This document shows positions 2,709-24,645 of a stretch of 24,645 nt of DNA, piece by piece. Position 1 is the stretch's first letter; each line of letters opens with the position of its first letter. Source of the stretch: a virus. The notes beneath the pieces were generated by a model, which saw nothing but the letters and a program-made list of their open reading frames with translations, did no database searches and was not told the origin of the DNA. A program made the position numbers and the translations under genes. The DNA is taken from positions 1 through 24,645 of IMG/VR virus record IMGVR_UViG_3300033144_002003; one strand, written 5' to 3'.

Positions 2709-3041
2709 TTAATCTTTTTTGTAATCAAATTTATAAGATACTTTACTTTTCTTTTCCACTTCAACATCCTGTATAGACACTACGAAGTCCTCATACTTCC
2801 CTTTCACATTGCTATACTTCCATATACTCCTAAGAACCCTTTCTTTAGTGTTCTCTGTAGGAAACTCATTATTACTATTCAGAGTAATAGGATATTTCTT
2901 TATCTTAAAGTACTTTATATGTTTATTAGAAGCTCTCCTTTTTATTCCTTCAATTCTATGATTGATCTTATCTAGCTCTTTCTTAGGAAAGTACTTGATA
3001 GTGAAGTTAGACACACATACTTCTGGGACTTCTTCGTTCAT
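2709..3041 (-). CDS. Hypothetical protein, first gene of the leftward set (110 aa)
   Basis: The 110-residue product is basic and Lys-rich (for example HRIEGIKRRASNKHIKYFKIKK), with likely beta strands around VCVSNFTIKYF and DFVVSIQDVEVEKK. No recognisable domain is present. It starts at 3041, about 23 bp from the nearer inverted repeat at 3064-3084. It is therefore the gene most directly exposed to any regulator binding the divergent control region. A nucleic-acid-binding role is possible from its charge but is only an inference. Confidence 0.7.
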   Translation of the reverse strand: MNEEVPEVCVSNFTIKYFPKKELDKINHRIEGIKRRASNKHIKYFKIKKYPITLNSNNEFPTENTKERVLRSIWKYSNVKGKYEDFVVSIQDVEVEKKSKVSYKFDYKKD

Positions 3042-3063
3042 AATTAAAAGTTTAAGTTTTTGC

Positions 3064-3084
3064 TAATGTAAGGAAATTACATTA
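3064..3084. promoter_or_regulatory. Perfect palindrome in the divergent control region (site 1)
   Basis: TAATGTAA (3064-3071) and TTACATTA (3077-3084) form an exact 8-bp inverted repeat around the 5-bp spacer GGAAA. It lies between the divergent genes starting at 3041 and 3133. It shares the core TGTAA-N5-TTACA with a second palindrome centred 22 bp away. This spacing puts both on one face of the helix, as expected for two dimeric operator sites. The regulator is unknown. The winged-helix-like product of 3133-3456 is an obvious candidate. Confidence 0.6.
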
Positions 3085-3087
3085 AAC

Positions 3088-3109
3088 TTGTAAATAAATT
3101 ACAATAGAA
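3088..3109 (+). promoter_or_regulatory. Palindromic promoter/operator element (site 2)
   Basis: TTGTAA (3088-3093) and TTACAA (3099-3104) form a perfect inverted repeat around ATAAA and are followed by TAGAA. A near copy occurs at 23300-23321 upstream of another rightward gene. Over 26 aligned bases the two differ at five positions, four of them in the spacer. Conservation of the asymmetric TAGAA tail on the same strand argues for an orientation-specific element such as a promoter, not only an operator. It ends 23 bp before the start codon at 3133. No standard Bacteroidota TAnnTTTG box is seen in the region. Confidence 0.6.
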
Positions 3110-3132: not shown

Positions 3133-3456
3133 ATGGGAAGAGGGCTTAGATGTGTACATGAGAGTAATCCGTTTGAAGAGGAAGTATCTTTAATGGATCA
3201 GAGAGGTATGCTTATATTATGTAGCTTAAACAAGCAAGGTCTTAATATGCTTGATTATTTATTAAGACATGGTAATGTATATGAAGAGATGTTTGTAATA
3301 TCTACAGACGACTATTTATCAGCTACAGGACTTACTTCTGCTAAATCTTTCTACCTAGGTATTGATAATTTAATAAGATGGGATGTCATTGCTAAGAGTA
3401 AAGAGGTAAATTTTTATTATATTAACACTAAGTTCTTCCCTAATGTTGAACTTTGA
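3133..3456 (+). CDS. Winged-helix-like DNA-binding protein
   Basis: This 107-residue protein resembles small winged-helix proteins of the RepL/replication-initiator type. Residues 54-82 have the pattern FVISTDDYLSATGLTSAKSFYLGIDNLI, in which a helix-turn-helix is followed by a helix ending in LIRWDVI. YYINTKFFPN (95-104) looks like the closing wing strand. The family binds DNA, either at origins or as a transcription regulator. The gene is first in the rightward block, directly downstream of two palindromes that could be its own operators. A role as regulator of late transcription, or of the switch between the two arms, would fit this position. That role is inferred from context, and only the wing and helix pattern is seen. 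Confidence 0.65.
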   Translation: MGRGLRCVHESNPFEEEVSLMDQRGMLILCSLNKQGLNMLDYLLRHGNVYEEMFVISTDDYLSATGLTSAKSFYLGIDNLIRWDVIAKSKEVNFYYINTKFFPNVEL

Positions 3457-3809: not shown

Positions 3810-4358
3810 ATGTTTGGAACTGCAATAGATGTAGACACTGATGGTAATGTATTCCTTAATGATAAAGGAGTAGCGTTACTACCTAGACTCTTTGAGGTCT
3901 ACAAAAAGAAAGGTATGGGGTCTAATATGGTTAAATGGATAGTCATGGTCGATGATTATAAATCCCCCTACAGAAAACTACCATTAGAAGAAAGAGAGTC
4001 ATTAGCAACTAGCGTTGTCTTTGAGAAGTCAAAATACAAAACTTGTGAAGACGAGTTAGTACTAGCTGCTAGGGATGAATATGCTAGAACGCAGTATGAT
4101 CCGTTAATAGACCAGTATAGAGCTATGTCAGATCAAATCTTTAAGATGACTAAGGTTTATAAAGGCATAACGCCAACTAAAGACAATCTATCAGACCTAA
4201 TTAAGATACAGAAAGAGATGGGGGCTGCTGCTAAATCCAGAGATGATATTAAATCTCTTATAGTTAAAGACCAAGAATCTGAGATTAAAATACAGGGAGC
4301 TGGTAGTGAAGACTTTTCTATGTGGGAAGACGAATTAAACATGAGAGGAGAATCGTGA
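3810..4358 (+). CDS. Probable small terminase subunit
   Basis: This 182-residue protein lies immediately upstream of the large terminase gene and overlaps it by four bases (GTGA), the usual place for the DNA-recognising small subunit. It should be mostly helical. A central stretch (DPLIDQYRAMSDQIFKMTKV) could form the oligomerisation coiled coil, and the C-terminal tail is acidic and ends at DELNMRGES. The N-terminal 50 residues (MFGTAIDVDTDGNVFLNDKG, then LLPRLFEVYKKKGMG) do not show an obvious helix-turn-helix. The assignment rests mainly on position, length and helical character. It might be another packaging accessory protein. Confidence 0.5.
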   Translation: MFGTAIDVDTDGNVFLNDKGVALLPRLFEVYKKKGMGSNMVKWIVMVDDYKSPYRKLPLEERESLATSVVFEKSKYKTCEDELVLAARDEYARTQYDPLIDQYRAMSDQIFKMTKVYKGITPTKDNLSDLIKIQKEMGAAAKSRDDIKSLIVKDQESEIKIQGAGSEDFSMWEDELNMRGES

Positions 4359-6310
4359 TAAAAGCACTTAAATACTGCCCTGTATTAACAGATAAGGACT
4401 ACCCTAAGTTAAGAGTGGGTACTATAGAGTATCGTAACTGGTGGAAGATACAGCAAGGAAGAATACTTAACGGATATAAGCCCACAGGAGGAACTTGGAT
4501 TCCAGGTAACTATTATTTCTATTTAAATTTCGGGAAGATACATGGCCTACCAGAAGGAGCTGTAAGAAAGACAATGATTAGCCCTATCTACAGGGATCAA
4601 GACCATGAATACTTTAACACAGTACATCAAGCAAAGGTTGACGGCAAAGGAGTTATAGTGCTGAAAGCCAGGAGGAAAGGTTTTAGTTTTATGAATGTAA
4701 ATATACTTTTACATGAGTGGACTTGTTACTCTCATAGTGAAAACGGACTGGGAGCGCAGAAGTCAGAATACGTAGAGGATTTCAGAAAAAAGCTATTACT
4801 TTCTTACAACGAATTACCTACGCCATTAAAGAATAAGATCCTTCACAATAATGAGGATATAATGATGAGTGGGTATAAGCAGAAAGAGAACGGTATATGG
4901 GTAGAGAGAGGTATGAAGTCTATGATGCATTTCAGGGTGATGGAGAAGCCTAATGCTTTTAGGGGTACATCATTAAACTACATGGTATTTGAGGAAGCTG
5001 GGGAATTTAACAAGCTACGTAGAGCCTATCAAGCTAACGAAGAATGTTTTAGGGAAGGGGCTAGGCAGTTTGGAACTCCTATTATTGGTGGAACAGCGAA
5101 TCAGATAAATGTAGACTCTGATGACTTTATGGAGATGTTCTACAACGCTGAAGACTACAATTTAGTGCCATTGTTTATTCCAGCCTCTAAGGTTTATGCA
5201 GGATACTTTGATACAGAGTATGGTAAGAGTGATATTAAAGGGGCTACTGAAGACATAGTTCGTAGAGCAGAGGCTAAGAAGAAGGGTAATGTGTTAGAGA
5301 ATTACTATGCGTTCCTTCAGGAGATGCCTTTGAAGCCAGAGGATGCTTTCACTAAGTCTGGCTCAACACCATTTGATTTAGATAAGATTAATAAACAAAT
5401 AGCTAATATAAACACCAACAAGAACTTCCAGGTAGTCCAAAGAGGTAGGTTGGAATGGCCTAGAGATAAACAAGGAAGAGAGCAATATGGAGCTAAGCCT
5501 GAGTGGATTATGGACGATGGTAGTTTGGATGCTGACAATCCTGATAAAGACTTATATCCTTTTGAGATTGTAGAGCATCCTATTGAAGGGTATAGAAATA
5601 TCCATGTGTCTGCTGTCGATCCATACCATGTTGATGATGAGTTTGAGGAGATAAAGACTTCTAAGAAATCTAAGAAGGAGTCTAAGGACAGGTCCAAAGG
5701 GTGTATGTGCGTGTATAGAAGGTTCGTAAGTCCTGATATTGTGGGGGAGCAAGCTGTAGCTTTTTATACTGACAGACCTTACAGCAAACAGGAGTTTTAT
5801 GAAAACTGTTTAAAGCTTGCTATTTATTACGACTCCCAAGTGTTAGTGGAATATAATGATGATGGTTTTTTAAAGTACTTTACATCTAACAAGATGACTA
5901 TGTATTTAAAAGAAAGACCTACTTCTGCTGACAGTCCTTGGAGTATCGCTACTAATAGGTATGGTATCCACATGAAGTCTTTCCAGAAGAGGAGACTTAC
6001 TGAATTAGTTGATGAATATATAAGAGATCACTGGGAAGATATATTCTTCATGAAGCTATTAAATGAGTTTGCAGTGTATGGAAAGCAGAACACGGATAGG
6101 GTGATGGCTTTCGGTATGGCATTGATTCATGACATGGATGCATTGAAGAAAGTCATTGATACAAAGGAAGATGAGAAGAGGGAAAAAGACTTTGTTCCTC
6201 ACTTCGCTACAGATAATAACGGGAACATTATATCTAATTATTCAGAAAAAAATGATATTTTTGATAATACGAAAAGAAGTCCTAACTTTAATTACAATCT
6301 GGATGATTAA
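4355..6310 (+). CDS. terL: Large terminase subunit (packaging ATPase/nuclease)
   Basis: This protein is the DNA-packaging motor. I choose GTG at 4355, giving 651 residues. AGAGGAG lies 4-5 bases before it and GTG overlaps the previous stop codon as GTGA. A GTG at 4322 would add 11 residues. Numbered from 4355, the N-terminal GTWIPGNYYFYLNFGKI resembles crAss-like terminases. KARRKGFS (104-111) is a non-canonical Walker A, YMVFEEAGEF (209-218) the Walker B with catalytic acid, and GGTAN (245-249) the coupling motif. The nuclease domain has Asp422 in AVDPY, Glu499 in VEYNDDG and Asp581 in TDRVMAFGMAL. A Lys/Ser-rich insert follows the first nuclease Asp. The portal gene starts 26 bp downstream. 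Confidence 0.92.
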   Translation: MIKALKYCPVLTDKDYPKLRVGTIEYRNWWKIQQGRILNGYKPTGGTWIPGNYYFYLNFGKIHGLPEGAVRKTMISPIYRDQDHEYFNTVHQAKVDGKGVIVLKARRKGFSFMNVNILLHEWTCYSHSENGLGAQKSEYVEDFRKKLLLSYNELPTPLKNKILHNNEDIMMSGYKQKENGIWVERGMKSMMHFRVMEKPNAFRGTSLNYMVFEEAGEFNKLRRAYQANEECFREGARQFGTPIIGGTANQINVDSDDFMEMFYNAEDYNLVPLFIPASKVYAGYFDTEYGKSDIKGATEDIVRRAEAKKKGNVLENYYAFLQEMPLKPEDAFTKSGSTPFDLDKINKQIANINTNKNFQVVQRGRLEWPRDKQGREQYGAKPEWIMDDGSLDADNPDKDLYPFEIVEHPIEGYRNIHVSAVDPYHVDDEFEEIKTSKKSKKESKDRSKGCMCVYRRFVSPDIVGEQAVAFYTDRPYSKQEFYENCLKLAIYYDSQVLVEYNDDGFLKYFTSNKMTMYLKERPTSADSPWSIATNRYGIHMKSFQKRRLTELVDEYIRDHWEDIFFMKLLNEFAVYGKQNTDRVMAFGMALIHDMDALKKVIDTKEDEKREKDFVPHFATDNNGNIISNYSEKNDIFDNTKRSPNFNYNLDD

Positions 6311-20878: not shown

Positions 20879-23290
20879 ATGGCTAAGAAAATTAACGTAG
20901 ATAATCTAAAGCTTGCGTATTCTGACGGTAGAGTTGTGGATTCAAACGAAACTAGAAGATTTGTTCAGAAGCTAGAGAAGATGTCTAAAAAATATGGTGG
21001 TGTAACGCCAGAAGACTTTTTAACTATTTTCATAAAAGAAAACGGACTAAAAAACGGAGCTATACTATTAGATCAGAAGTCTAAAGCTGATACGGATGAG
21101 TCTGGAGGAAAAGCTAAAGGACTAATACAATTCGTTCCTAGCACAGCTAAAGGTCTTGGTTTAGATCAAGATAAGCTGTCTGAAATGACAGCTACAGAGC
21201 AACTTGATTTTGTAGACAAATACTATAAAGACTTGGGTGATCCAAAAAATATAAAATCTTTTCAGGACTTATATTTAGGAACGTTTTACCCAAAAGCTTT
21301 AGGAGAGGGTGATGACTTTGTAATAGCAAAAGAAGGAAGAAGGGCTTATACAGCCAATGCTAACATAGATACTAAGTTTGGTGATGGTGATGGTGTGCTA
21401 ACTAAAGGCGATTTCTTAGGTTATGCTAATCAAGATATATCTTCTATGACTGGAGATGTTCTTCAGGAAGTTAGTCAAGAGGAGTACGATAGAGGATACC
21501 CTGAGCCTAACGAAGTTTTTATTAATAGCGAAAATGTTTTAGTTAAGTCTGGAAAAAACAAAGGTAAATACAAAACCGTATATACTCTTCCTGACGGATC
21601 TAGAAAAGCTGTTGTAAACCCTAGTCCAACTACTATTAAAACAATTGCTGGAGATCAGTATCTTGCTACAAAAGGAGGTAAAAATTATAAGTTAGATAGA
21701 GAGTCTGGGTTTCAAGAGAAGGCTTTGAGTAATGATAATATATACAATAGTAAGCTTAAAGAGCTAGAAGACAAAGCTAAAAGCGGAGATTTAACACCAA
21801 GGGAGCTTCGTGTTGCTCAGAATATATACGATGTAAGGCAAAGCGAGTTAGATGACAAAATAAAAGGTAGAGATGAAGGGTTCTTTGAAGACGCTCCAAA
21901 GATAGGTGTTAGAAACATAAAAGGATTAAGAAGGGAGAAAGCTGCTTTAGAGAGAAGGTTTTCGGCCAACATACTTCTTCCAGAGGTTAGGAATAGATTT
22001 AAAGCTGAAGGAGAAAAAAGAAAGAATGACCTTAATAAACTAAGAGAAGAGTCTTTAGATTTTAATAAGTCAGAAGACGAACTGATTCAGGCTAAAAAAA
22101 ACTTAGCGATTGCTGAATCTGAGTACGATACGTTTGAAGACGGTAGAGAAGATTTTGCTAAAAAACTAGAGTCTTACGATTATCTATCTTCTAGCAAAAT
22201 TAAAGATGGAAACAGATTTGAGAGTAAAAACCTTATTCAGGAATATGCTGGAGCAGGATTAGGAGATCTTGTGAGTGAAATGTCTAAAGAGCTTAATTCA
22301 TTTTTAAGCAAGGATGTAGAGACTGATGTAGCTCTTCAAGAAGAAAAGGTTCAGGACAAGCCAGACTTAGCTACCCAGGATATTAATAGAGGTGGTGGTA
22401 CAGGTACTTCTACTTCTCAGCAAGTGAAAGTGGGGACTAGAAGCGATAATCAAGTTGTTGATAGCGACCTTGGATTAACCTCTGAAGAACAAGATATTCT
22501 TGACGCTAAGAAAGTTGTTGATACTGATGCTTTACAGCAACAAATAGATTTAAACAATGAAGCTTTAGCAGAAATGAAAGCTCAAAAGCCTATTGACGAT
22601 TCTATAGTTCAAGGTCAGGATGACACGCTAGAGAATGTTCTAGGCTACGGGTCTGACATAGCTAGAGGTATTATAGGGCTGTCTGGAGCTACTGAGAAAC
22701 TTCCTGAGTACGAAAGAGGAGCAGCCTTTAATGAATACCTAGATACTCAAAGAAGGTTTAAGGATCAAGGCTTAACAGCTTTAGAAGAGTCTGTTAGAAA
22801 GCAAAGAGGAGAAAGAGCCTATGGGTTTGATGTTGCTAATATTCGTAGCATGGGTCAAGGAGCTGGAGCTACACTTGCTGCTATGGGGGGTGCTGCTGGA
22901 AGACTTCAAGATAGATACGCTGAAGTAGGACTAGAAGATGCTGCGCTAAAAAGACAAGGTAGAGCTGATTTCGCTAGAGCTGCATTAACTGACGAGCAAA
23001 TCAACAGACAACAGTTTGAAGATAAGTTTAAAGTTTCTATGGCTAATAAAGAGGCTGGAGCTGGTTTAGTAAGAGATGCTTACACTAACTTAAATGAAAG
23101 AGTTGCATTCAATAAAGCTTACGGAAAAGGCAGTCAACACTACGCTTATCAGGACGAGCTGATGAAATCTATGAAAACTAACAGAGAGCTTCTTAAGAGG
23201 GGTGCTGAAAACAGAACTAAGCAAGGAGTTAAAGCTTTAGAAGAAAGTAACATAGAACTTCAAAAAAGAATAGACAAAGCTAATGTCTAA
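20879..23290 (+). CDS. Virion cargo protein with N-terminal transglycosylase-like domain
   Basis: The 803-residue protein begins with a lysozyme-like domain (about 25-190). FLTIFIKENGL holds the candidate catalytic Glu54, followed by GLIQFVPSTAKGLG (81-94) and EQLDFVDKYYKDLG, then LYLGTFYPKAL, the pattern of phage lytic transglycosylases. A short D-x-DG-type calcium-loop-like motif, FGDGDGVLTKGDF (167-179), follows. The middle (about 290-480) is charged and coiled-coil. The C-terminal third is helical, with RGAAFNEYLDTQRRFKDQGL and a Gly-rich segment. It is probably carried in the virion and cuts peptidoglycan during DNA entry. Structural lysozymes like this occur in podovirus ejection proteins. 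The catalytic Glu is inferred from alignment by eye. Confidence 0.75.
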   Translation: MAKKINVDNLKLAYSDGRVVDSNETRRFVQKLEKMSKKYGGVTPEDFLTIFIKENGLKNGAILLDQKSKADTDESGGKAKGLIQFVPSTAKGLGLDQDKLSEMTATEQLDFVDKYYKDLGDPKNIKSFQDLYLGTFYPKALGEGDDFVIAKEGRRAYTANANIDTKFGDGDGVLTKGDFLGYANQDISSMTGDVLQEVSQEEYDRGYPEPNEVFINSENVLVKSGKNKGKYKTVYTLPDGSRKAVVNPSPTTIKTIAGDQYLATKGGKNYKLDRESGFQEKALSNDNIYNSKLKELEDKAKSGDLTPRELRVAQNIYDVRQSELDDKIKGRDEGFFEDAPKIGVRNIKGLRREKAALERRFSANILLPEVRNRFKAEGEKRKNDLNKLREESLDFNKSEDELIQAKKNLAIAESEYDTFEDGREDFAKKLESYDYLSSSKIKDGNRFESKNLIQEYAGAGLGDLVSEMSKELNSFLSKDVETDVALQEEKVQDKPDLATQDINRGGGTGTSTSQQVKVGTRSDNQVVDSDLGLTSEEQDILDAKKVVDTDALQQQIDLNNEALAEMKAQKPIDDSIVQGQDDTLENVLGYGSDIARGIIGLSGATEKLPEYERGAAFNEYLDTQRRFKDQGLTALEESVRKQRGERAYGFDVANIRSMGQGAGATLAAMGGAAGRLQDRYAEVGLEDAALKRQGRADFARAALTDEQINRQQFEDKFKVSMANKEAGAGLVRDAYTNLNERVAFNKAYGKGSQHYAYQDELMKSMKTNRELLKRGAENRTKQGVKALEESNIELQKRIDKANV

Positions 23291-23299
23291 ATAATTTAT

Positions 23300-23321
23300 T
23301 TGTAATATATTTACAATAGAA
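23300..23321 (+). promoter_or_regulatory. Palindromic promoter/operator element (site 3)
   Basis: TTGTAA (23300-23305) and TTACAA (23311-23316) form a perfect inverted repeat around TATAT and are followed by TAGAA. It nearly duplicates site 2 at 3088-3109. Over 26 bases there are five differences, four of them in the spacer. It lies in the 42-bp gap before the next gene, ending 11 bp before its ATG. No gap in the tail gene block before this exceeds 3 bp, so a new transcription unit likely begins here. Confidence 0.6.
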
Positions 23322-23332
23322 CATTTATCAAT

Positions 23333-24645
23333 ATGGGAGATTTCGGTTTATATCAAGCGTTAAGAGGAACTGACAATTGGGCGCAGAAGCGTCAAGATAA
23401 GATGCAGTCTTTAATGATTGCTAGAGAAAGAGACCAGAACTCTCAGAAAGAGCTTAAGCAGTCTATGGAGCTAGAACAAGGTATGCAAAAGTACTTTGAC
23501 GAAATGAAAAACCTAGATGCTCTATCCGAAGATCAAGGAAGGATCAATGATGAAGAGAAGAAAGCTAGGAGAAAGATTTATAAAGGTATAGCTGCTGCTA
23601 ACGGGAACTTAAAAGCTTACATGTCTTCTGGTGGTATTTCAGCTATGAGCGATTACAGGAACTCTGTATTAAACTCTGAAGCTGCTAAAAACGCTGCAAC
23701 TAATAAAGCTAACTATGCCAACTGGATGAAAGACGCTAGTGATGGTAAGTTTATTAACGAGGTTAATGTTGAAGTGCCTGTAATGAAGGATGGTGAGCCT
23801 GTGTTAGATGATAATGGTAAGCCGAAAACTCAAATTAAGAGTGTTTCAATGAAACAACAAGCTGCATTATTCCAAAAAGGAATTATTAAAAGGATGAATT
23901 ACGGTGGTGCTGAGGAAGCTGTAAAAATCAACATGTTCGATTTTGCAGATCAAGCTAAAGATCCAAACAATCCTTATTACGCAGAGAATGTAACTACAAG
24001 CGATATTATAACATTAGCAAGGAGCAGAGGTGCTGGCTTACCTCAAGCTAAATCTATAGCTAAAGATTACGCTATGAATACGGCTAGTAGCGGTCAAGCG
24101 TGGAAGTGGGGTAAAGAAGATTATGATGAAGCCCTATTAAAGCAAGCTAAAGCAGCTAAGCTGAGAGGTCTGGGCAGAGGTAAAGGAGGGTCTAGTAAAA
24201 CAATGATCACAAATCAACTAGCTCCAGCTCTTCTAAATAGGCTTCCAGAAGGAGGTAAAACGCAGTTTGGCTTAAAAGACGATAAGATGTGGTCTGATGT
24301 GTACGGCTTAAGAAGCGACTCTAAAACTAATATGACTAAACCAACCAGACCGCTAGTGATTACAGACAGAGACACTGACGCTGTTTATGATGCGTCAAAC
24401 GTTTTAGACATTAAGTTTACTGGAGAGTATATTAAAAAGAACGGAGAGGTATACGCTGTAACTGACGTAGTTTATGATGCAGACGAACCTAGAAATAAAA
24501 ATCCTCATGTAGAAGATTTCTTTGGTAAAAATAATCTTACAGATGATGACACAAGGCATAATTGGCAGTTTGTAGACGCTGGAGATGTATGGAATGAAAA
24601 TCAATTAGACGCTGCTGAGATAGATTCTGGCAAAGACGTTGTTAG
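23333..24645 (+). CDS. Cargo-type helical protein, cut by the window edge
   Basis: ATG at 23333 starts an open frame of 437 codons that runs to the window end, so the C-terminus is missing. The protein starts MGDFGLYQALRGTDNWAQKR and is charged and helical over about 100 residues. It continues with ISAMSDYRNSVLNSEAAKNA and a VPVMKDGEPVLDDNGKPKTQ segment, a layout I associate with internal cargo proteins of crAss-like virions. Around residue 280 there is a Lys/Gly-rich stretch (AKLRGLGRGKGG). In that lineage a giant virion RNA polymerase is commonly encoded just beyond this point. The palindromic element before the start suggests a separate promoter. Confidence 0.7.
   Translation, partial: MGDFGLYQALRGTDNWAQKRQDKMQSLMIARERDQNSQKELKQSMELEQGMQKYFDEMKNLDALSEDQGRINDEEKKARRKIYKGIAAANGNLKAYMSSGGISAMSDYRNSVLNSEAAKNAATNKANYANWMKDASDGKFINEVNVEVPVMKDGEPVLDDNGKPKTQIKSVSMKQQAALFQKGIIKRMNYGGAEEAVKINMFDFADQAKDPNNPYYAENVTTSDIITLARSRGAGLPQAKSIAKDYAMNTASSGQAWKWGKEDYDEALLKQAKAAKLRGLGRGKGGSSKTMITNQLAPALLNRLPEGGKTQFGLKDDKMWSDVYGLRSDSKTNMTKPTRPLVITDRDTDAVYDASNVLDIKFTGEYIKKNGEVYAVTDVVYDADEPRNKNPHVEDFFGKNNLTDDDTRHNWQFVDAGDVWNENQLDAAEIDSGKDVV

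Follow-up and report, generated by a model that had tools for sequence, protein, structure and literature searches.

A palindromic element at the arm switch and recombination operon of crAss-like phages, very probably a conserved regulator-binding site

How crAss-like phages switch from one class of genes to another is little known, because few of these phages have been cultured. The stretch of DNA analyzed here, hereafter the window (24,645 bases of one IMG/VR record), is a crAss-like phage fragment in which two gene arms diverge from a 91-bp gap, bounded by a leftward gene start at 3041 and a rightward gene start at 3133, and two palindromes (sites 1 and 2) lie within this gap (Table 1). A sequence-only reading had taken them for the operator of a dimeric regulator. 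Are they operators, how far does their influence reach, and which protein would bind them? The terminase, portal and major capsid protein of the window match crAss-like PHROG families and, together with the gene order, place the fragment in the Crassvirales; the terminase is 24-27% identical to the best among the classified crAss-like phages listed. Relatives of complete size measure about 70 kb, and a search with the product of the gene starting at 23333 for the remaining parts of the window's genome found nothing. Three proteins of the leftward arm (2224-2706, 1531-1881 and 770-1009) have no confident function, the second of them matching phrog_10066, itself of unknown function.

Table 1. 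Positions of the palindromes, candidate promoter boxes and genes discussed in the text
Feature	Coordinates	Strand	Remarks
Site 1, TAATGTAA-GGAAA-TTACATTA	3064..3084	none	8-bp arms; core TGTAA-N5-TTACA at 3067-3081
Site 2, TTGTAA-ATAAA-TTACAA	3088..3104	none	Core TGTAA-N5-TTACA at 3089-3103
Site 3, TTGTAA-TATAT-TTACAA	23300..23316	+	Core at 23301-23315; precedes the gene opening the cargo/RNA-polymerase module
Candidate -7 box TAAACTTG	3083..3090	+	Predicted rightward host-type promoter; TTG at 3060-3062, 20-bp spacer
Candidate -7 box TACATTAG	3063..3070	-	Predicted leftward promoter; overlaps the outer half of site 1
Candidate -7 box TATATTTA	23306..23313	+	Prediction; inside site 3
110-aa protein, first leftward gene	2709..3041	-	Conserved at the arm switch of relatives
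107-aa predicted winged-helix protein	3133..3456	+	First rightward gene; best regulator candidate
Terminase large subunit (phrog_6681)	4322..6310	+	Query anchoring the search for relatives
Gene downstream of site 3	23333..24645	+	Cut by the end of the window; homologue of G002_064

The two palindromes of the gap are exactly as first described, perfect and built on a common core, with centers at 3074 and 3096 and thus 22 bp apart. To these we add site 3, absent from the sequence-only reading, which is intergenic, between a stop at 23290 and an ATG at 23333, and ends 17 bp upstream of that ATG. Sites 2 and 3 have in common a one-sided extension, TTGTAA-N5-TTACAATAGAAyATT, that points to the downstream genes. 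The three copies of TGTAA-N5-TTACA observed in the window compare with a mean of 0.07 in 300 dinucleotide shuffles of the window, and when the 91-bp gap was shuffled 20,000 times, at least one copy arose in 0.12% of the shuffles and two copies in none. In the window and four complete-sized relatives (G001-G004), the looser form TGTA-N7-TACA is in excess in intergenic DNA only (11 copies versus 0.72 expected), its number within genes being near expectation (10 versus 9.2 expected). Each genome has only two to four sites. These shuffles and the intergenic enrichment, together with the counts upstream of Sak4 given below, led us to reject a chance origin of the palindromes.

Beyond this group the signal fades. 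Intergenic DNA of five more distant phages holds 0 copies of TGTA-N7-TACA versus 0.81 expected, and the pattern is not enriched over its reversed form in Flavobacterium phage FPSV-S29. A scan of IMG/VR for TTGTAA-N5-TTACAATAGAA returned 50 stretches, most of which, past the close relatives, lie within genes in a chance-like manner. A literature search for the motif string found no paper.

At the arm switch, the motif keeps its position in close and distant relatives alike. Where the terminase is 91% identical to that of the window (L005-L007 and L010), both sites and their 22-bp spacing are kept while spacer bases differ, and at 79% and 86-87% identity (L009 and L012) both positions and the spacing are retained, with site 1 lacking one half. 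Site 2 is kept in L004-L008 and L010 and has the TGTA-N7-TACA form in L009 and L012. One relative (L008:330-372) lacks 8 bases within site 1 relative to L007, which could be a natural variant or an assembly error. A wider terminase search yielded 38 loci. Most clades retain TGTA-N7-TACA at the arm switch until terminase identity falls to about 65%, and it is absent from more distant relatives. Site 1 is the copy with homologues at that position in most clades. TAATGTACTTTTATTACATTA or a near-identical site is present in the L058-L065 group and in L069, and the strand-switch sites read ATGTACTTTTAGTACAT in L067, TTATGTATTTTTTATACATAA in L068, TGTATAAAAAGTACA in L062, TGTATTTAAAATACA in L066 and TTAGTGTATAAAAAGTACACTAA in L070. 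Clade C (L071-L086) counts against the operator reading, in that its site, mostly TGTAW-N5-WTACA-like, lies farther upstream, and in that no full-form site was found at the arm switch of its members L076 and L079. A conserved C-rich block (CCCCCCTATAATCCCCCC, with small variations) adjoins the clade C palindrome at the L071-L086 strand switches and is unexplained. Since other clades have a single site at the arm switch, only the window's subgroup has the pair. The sequence-only reading had named two results that would refute it, a motif no commoner in intergenic than in coding DNA and its absence from this position in close relatives, and neither was obtained. Thus, intergenic excess and conservation in relatives together give good support to the proposed paired operator in the divergent control region, but the 22-bp pairing itself belongs to that one subgroup.

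The element has a second fixed place. In G001-G004, a further intergenic copy is found in the other arm, always upstream of a Sak4-like operon in which an annealing ATPase, confirmed as phrog_2872, is accompanied by SSB-like, NinB-like and exonuclease genes. Scanning for the ATPase gave 78 loci, and among the 75 with enough upstream DNA to be counted, 39 have TGTA-N7-TACA at most 360 bp upstream of Sak4, versus 1.0 expected. The sites lie mostly 235-319 bp upstream of Sak4, directly ahead of a small gene. These sites were picked by exact match to TGTA-N7-TACA, and the invariance of their eight letters therefore follows from the selection, which does not account for their fixed place relative to Sak4. 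The similarity between the two places is close, as TAATGTAATTTTCTTACATTT, the minus-strand sequence of the L006 arm-switch site, differs from the Sak4 site of G001 (TAATGTACTTTTCTTACATTT) at 1 of 21 bases. In L147 and L133 the site stands directly before Sak4, and the L147 core, TGTAATATATTTACA, matches site 3 in every base, as it does site 2 of L005-L010. Both loci probably come from the window's subgroup, judging by the metagenomes they share with L010 and L008 and by their similar GC content, and the window's own subgroup probably also has a copy at its Sak4 recombination operon.

Other features of these regions deserve mention in their own right. A small HU-like protein (Bac_DNA_binding, E 7e-5) is encoded between the DnaB-like helicase and Sak4 at L147:2476-2727, and the replication arm of relatives contains a PRTRC-type ubiquitin-like cassette with Prok_Ub, ThiF/E1-like, Prok-E2_D and PRTRC_E proteins (G002:6141-10959, corresponding to L092; also in G001, G003, G004 and G016).

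Given that relatives carry the element at both the arm switch and the Sak4 operon, it very probably serves as a conserved site at which a phage regulator binds and helps to time gene expression. The palindromes are a real, conserved and very probably functional element of a known kind, and the proposed phage regulon is newly described. Site 3 suggests how much farther this regulon could extend. In complete-sized relatives, G002_064 precedes a polymerase-like gene, whose product in G002 has 2,794 aa and a DxDGD motif as in RNA polymerases. The proteins encoded at G002:37220-45604 and by the homologues in G001, G003 and G004 (2,794-3,472 aa) have the motif S-D-x-D-H-D-G-D-K and are probably the giant crAss-like RNA polymerase. 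Because site 3 stands before the G002_064 homologue, the virion polymerase module may also belong to the regulon. The idea of an operator for the switch between arms therefore describes the arm-switch sites well but is too narrow for the element as a whole, which also marks the Sak4 operon and the window's cargo/polymerase module.

Could the element instead be a promoter for a phage RNA polymerase, for instance a hairpin promoter used by a virion polymerase of the N4 type? The early and middle genes of Crassvirales are transcribed by an RNA polymerase that is carried in the virion and injected, a programme that has been compared to that of N4 (PMC10136315). The sites in the window are able to fold into a short DNA hairpin (-2.8 to -4.4 kcal/mol), but the common Sak4 form has no stem beyond that of shuffled sequences (z 0.01), which makes a hairpin promoter unlikely. 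Two to four sites per genome, some of them fronting the structural arm that the host polymerase would be expected to transcribe, and a varying register to the -7 box also argue against such a promoter, and we consider it very improbable. The same low standing applies to a replication initiator binding its sites at an origin, a role suggested by RepA/RepE-type winged-helix proteins, which bind origins and their own operator. The arm switch of the window is also where its GC skew turns, with the minimum at 2982, and RepE/RepA domains are among the structural neighbors of the winged-helix protein encoded next to the switch. The Sak4 sites and site 3, however, directly precede genes and do not lie at a skew turn, so that an origin function is unlikely for them.

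The sites also overlap predicted promoters. In flavobacteria, the -7 box of sigma-A promoters reads TAnnTTTG and spans -12 to -5 (PMC9723704). The boxes listed in Table 1 and those discussed below are predictions from consensus matches in very AT-rich DNA. In the predicted rightward promoter, the spacer is filled by site 1, and site 2 begins where the TAAACTTG box ends. At many arm switches, boxes of the TAnnTTTG form lie near the start codons of both the leftward and the rightward gene; several of them would give leaderless or nearly leaderless messages, and in L062, L066, L067 and L058 the predicted boxes end 4 bases ahead of the start codon in one or both directions. At the Sak4 operons, most of 27 distinct sites have a right half-site that merges into a TACATTTR box, and the left half-site TGTA, at about -23, belongs to neither the -33 nor the -7 box. 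Promoter boxes are not expected at that position, which points to a separate binding protein, with the caution that the letters of these sites were fixed by their selection. Between the palindrome and the -7 box the distance takes a few fixed values, 11 at Sak4 and, at arm switches, 24-25 and 33-35, and TTG at -33 is missing from most of these predicted promoters.

Each half-site has a TGTA core, and the half-sites are spaced 11 bp apart. From the excess of sites over chance, their intergenic position and their conservation, we judge it probable that the palindromes are operators of a dimeric DNA-binding protein controlling a small phage regulon, most likely as a repressor. The phage would use host-type promoters with a TAnnTTTG box, with sites 1 and 2 overlapping the predicted divergent promoters of the arms and site 3 that of the cargo/polymerase module. 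A phage-encoded regulator, most likely the product of 3133-3456, would bind across these promoters and block the host RNA polymerase, such that middle and late operons would be delayed or silenced in concert and the regulator would also limit the operon that encodes it. Cooperative binding could occur in the window's subgroup, where the two dimers would be two helical turns apart.

The few fixed distances could also suit an activator, which would bind the same operators, replace a weak or missing -33 contact and recruit the host polymerase to a -7 box, as MotA does at the middle promoters of T4. The general lack of TTG at -33 and the repeated spacing of the arm-switch palindromes from two -7 boxes (24-25 and 33-35 bp) fit this idea, and one winged-helix homologue weakly matches the MotA-like family phrog_1345. 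That match is not significant, however (E 0.02, in one of four winged-helix homologues), the registers vary among operons, and at Sak4 the palindrome runs into the -7 box. In the window's subgroup the palindrome covers the box or the start site, the usual place for a repressor. Activation thus seems rather unlikely to us.

For the repressor that we favor, the 107-aa protein is the most likely candidate to bind the palindromes. Its model is a winged helix (pLDDT 87.6), as the sequence-only reading had supposed, with the CodY DNA-binding domain as the nearest structure (Z 7.3), followed by CRP, ArsR, MarR and RepA domains; none of these neighbors is significant as kin, the best Z being under the level that proves kinship. 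The protein is conserved across 16 aligned sequences, including the recognition-helix region. It has no significant match to a named family in Pfam or PHROGs, the best weak matches being HTH_36 (E 0.024) and phrog_9501 (E 4.7e-5, unknown function). Among 52 replication-arm proteins of G002, Pfam recognized no HTH family, which makes the 107-aa protein the best candidate, although another regulator could be hidden, since Pfam hardly sees this winged helix either. The first leftward protein, for which the model is of moderate quality (pLDDT 80.8) and matched no known fold, is a possible alternative.

Autoregulation by the 3133-3456 product is plausible. In L006, L009 and L012, a gene for a MazG-like pyrophosphatase precedes the winged-helix gene, so that the latter is first in its operon only in the window, and the palindromes are not tied to its start. 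The gene also sits in the structural operon, which is odd for a regulator needed early and counts against its role. It is missing from the palindrome-free contigs G013-G018, an absence that says little because G016-G018 have no terminase match and apparently lack that region and G013-G015 are distant. Neither the gene nor the palindrome was detected in L211 (54% terminase identity, from a Cytophagales bin), and L083 has the gene; neither contig shows an arm switch.

A host transcription factor could also bind the palindromes as its operators, with the phage either exploiting or evading it. The small number of sites per genome agrees with such a factor, and the phage protein is only a candidate binder. 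Against a host factor, the phage clade carries both the element and the winged-helix gene throughout, and neither is found in the distant phages examined, although this amounts to one deep split, and the winged-helix protein is the sole recognizable candidate, if from a limited search of the G002 replication arm. We regard a host factor as improbable. A more ambitious version of the phage regulator, which we put forward as doubtful, is that one small winged-helix protein, by binding the palindrome within host-type promoters, might serve as the master timing regulator of the arm switch, the Sak4 operon and, in the window's subgroup, the polymerase module, with the position of the site setting repression or activation.

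A probable conserved operator that recurs at two or more operons and has a single plausible cognate protein offers a concrete handle on the switch between gene classes, and comparing promoters across metagenomic relatives can reveal regulatory sites of uncultured phages. Like the window's phage, crAss001 and phi14:2 have two arms, middle replication and late structural blocks, and a giant virion RNA polymerase (here a probable one, seen in relatives). The TGTA-N7-TACA element was not found in phi14:2, where the three matches are not in excess of the reversed control pattern and both of those examined are inside genes. As in Bacteroidota sigma-A promoters, the sites overlap TAnnTTTG matches, some with TTG 20 bp upstream, but the TGTA half-site at the Sak4 operons falls outside both boxes. 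The middle promoters of T4 provide another parallel, in which a phage protein (here putative) and the host polymerase coordinate one gene class through sites overlapping the upstream promoter box. The MotA box is not palindromic, whereas here a dyad occurs at several registers, and the homology to MotA is not significant. Similar in layout are the OR and OL operators of lambda, where palindromes for one regulator are also about two helical turns apart between divergent promoters, and where a small DNA-binding protein (here predicted) is encoded in an operon that it controls. Unlike lambda, the crAss-like phage has no recognized cI or Cro homologue and two sites in one subgroup only, and these phages have extra sites at their recombination and cargo operons.
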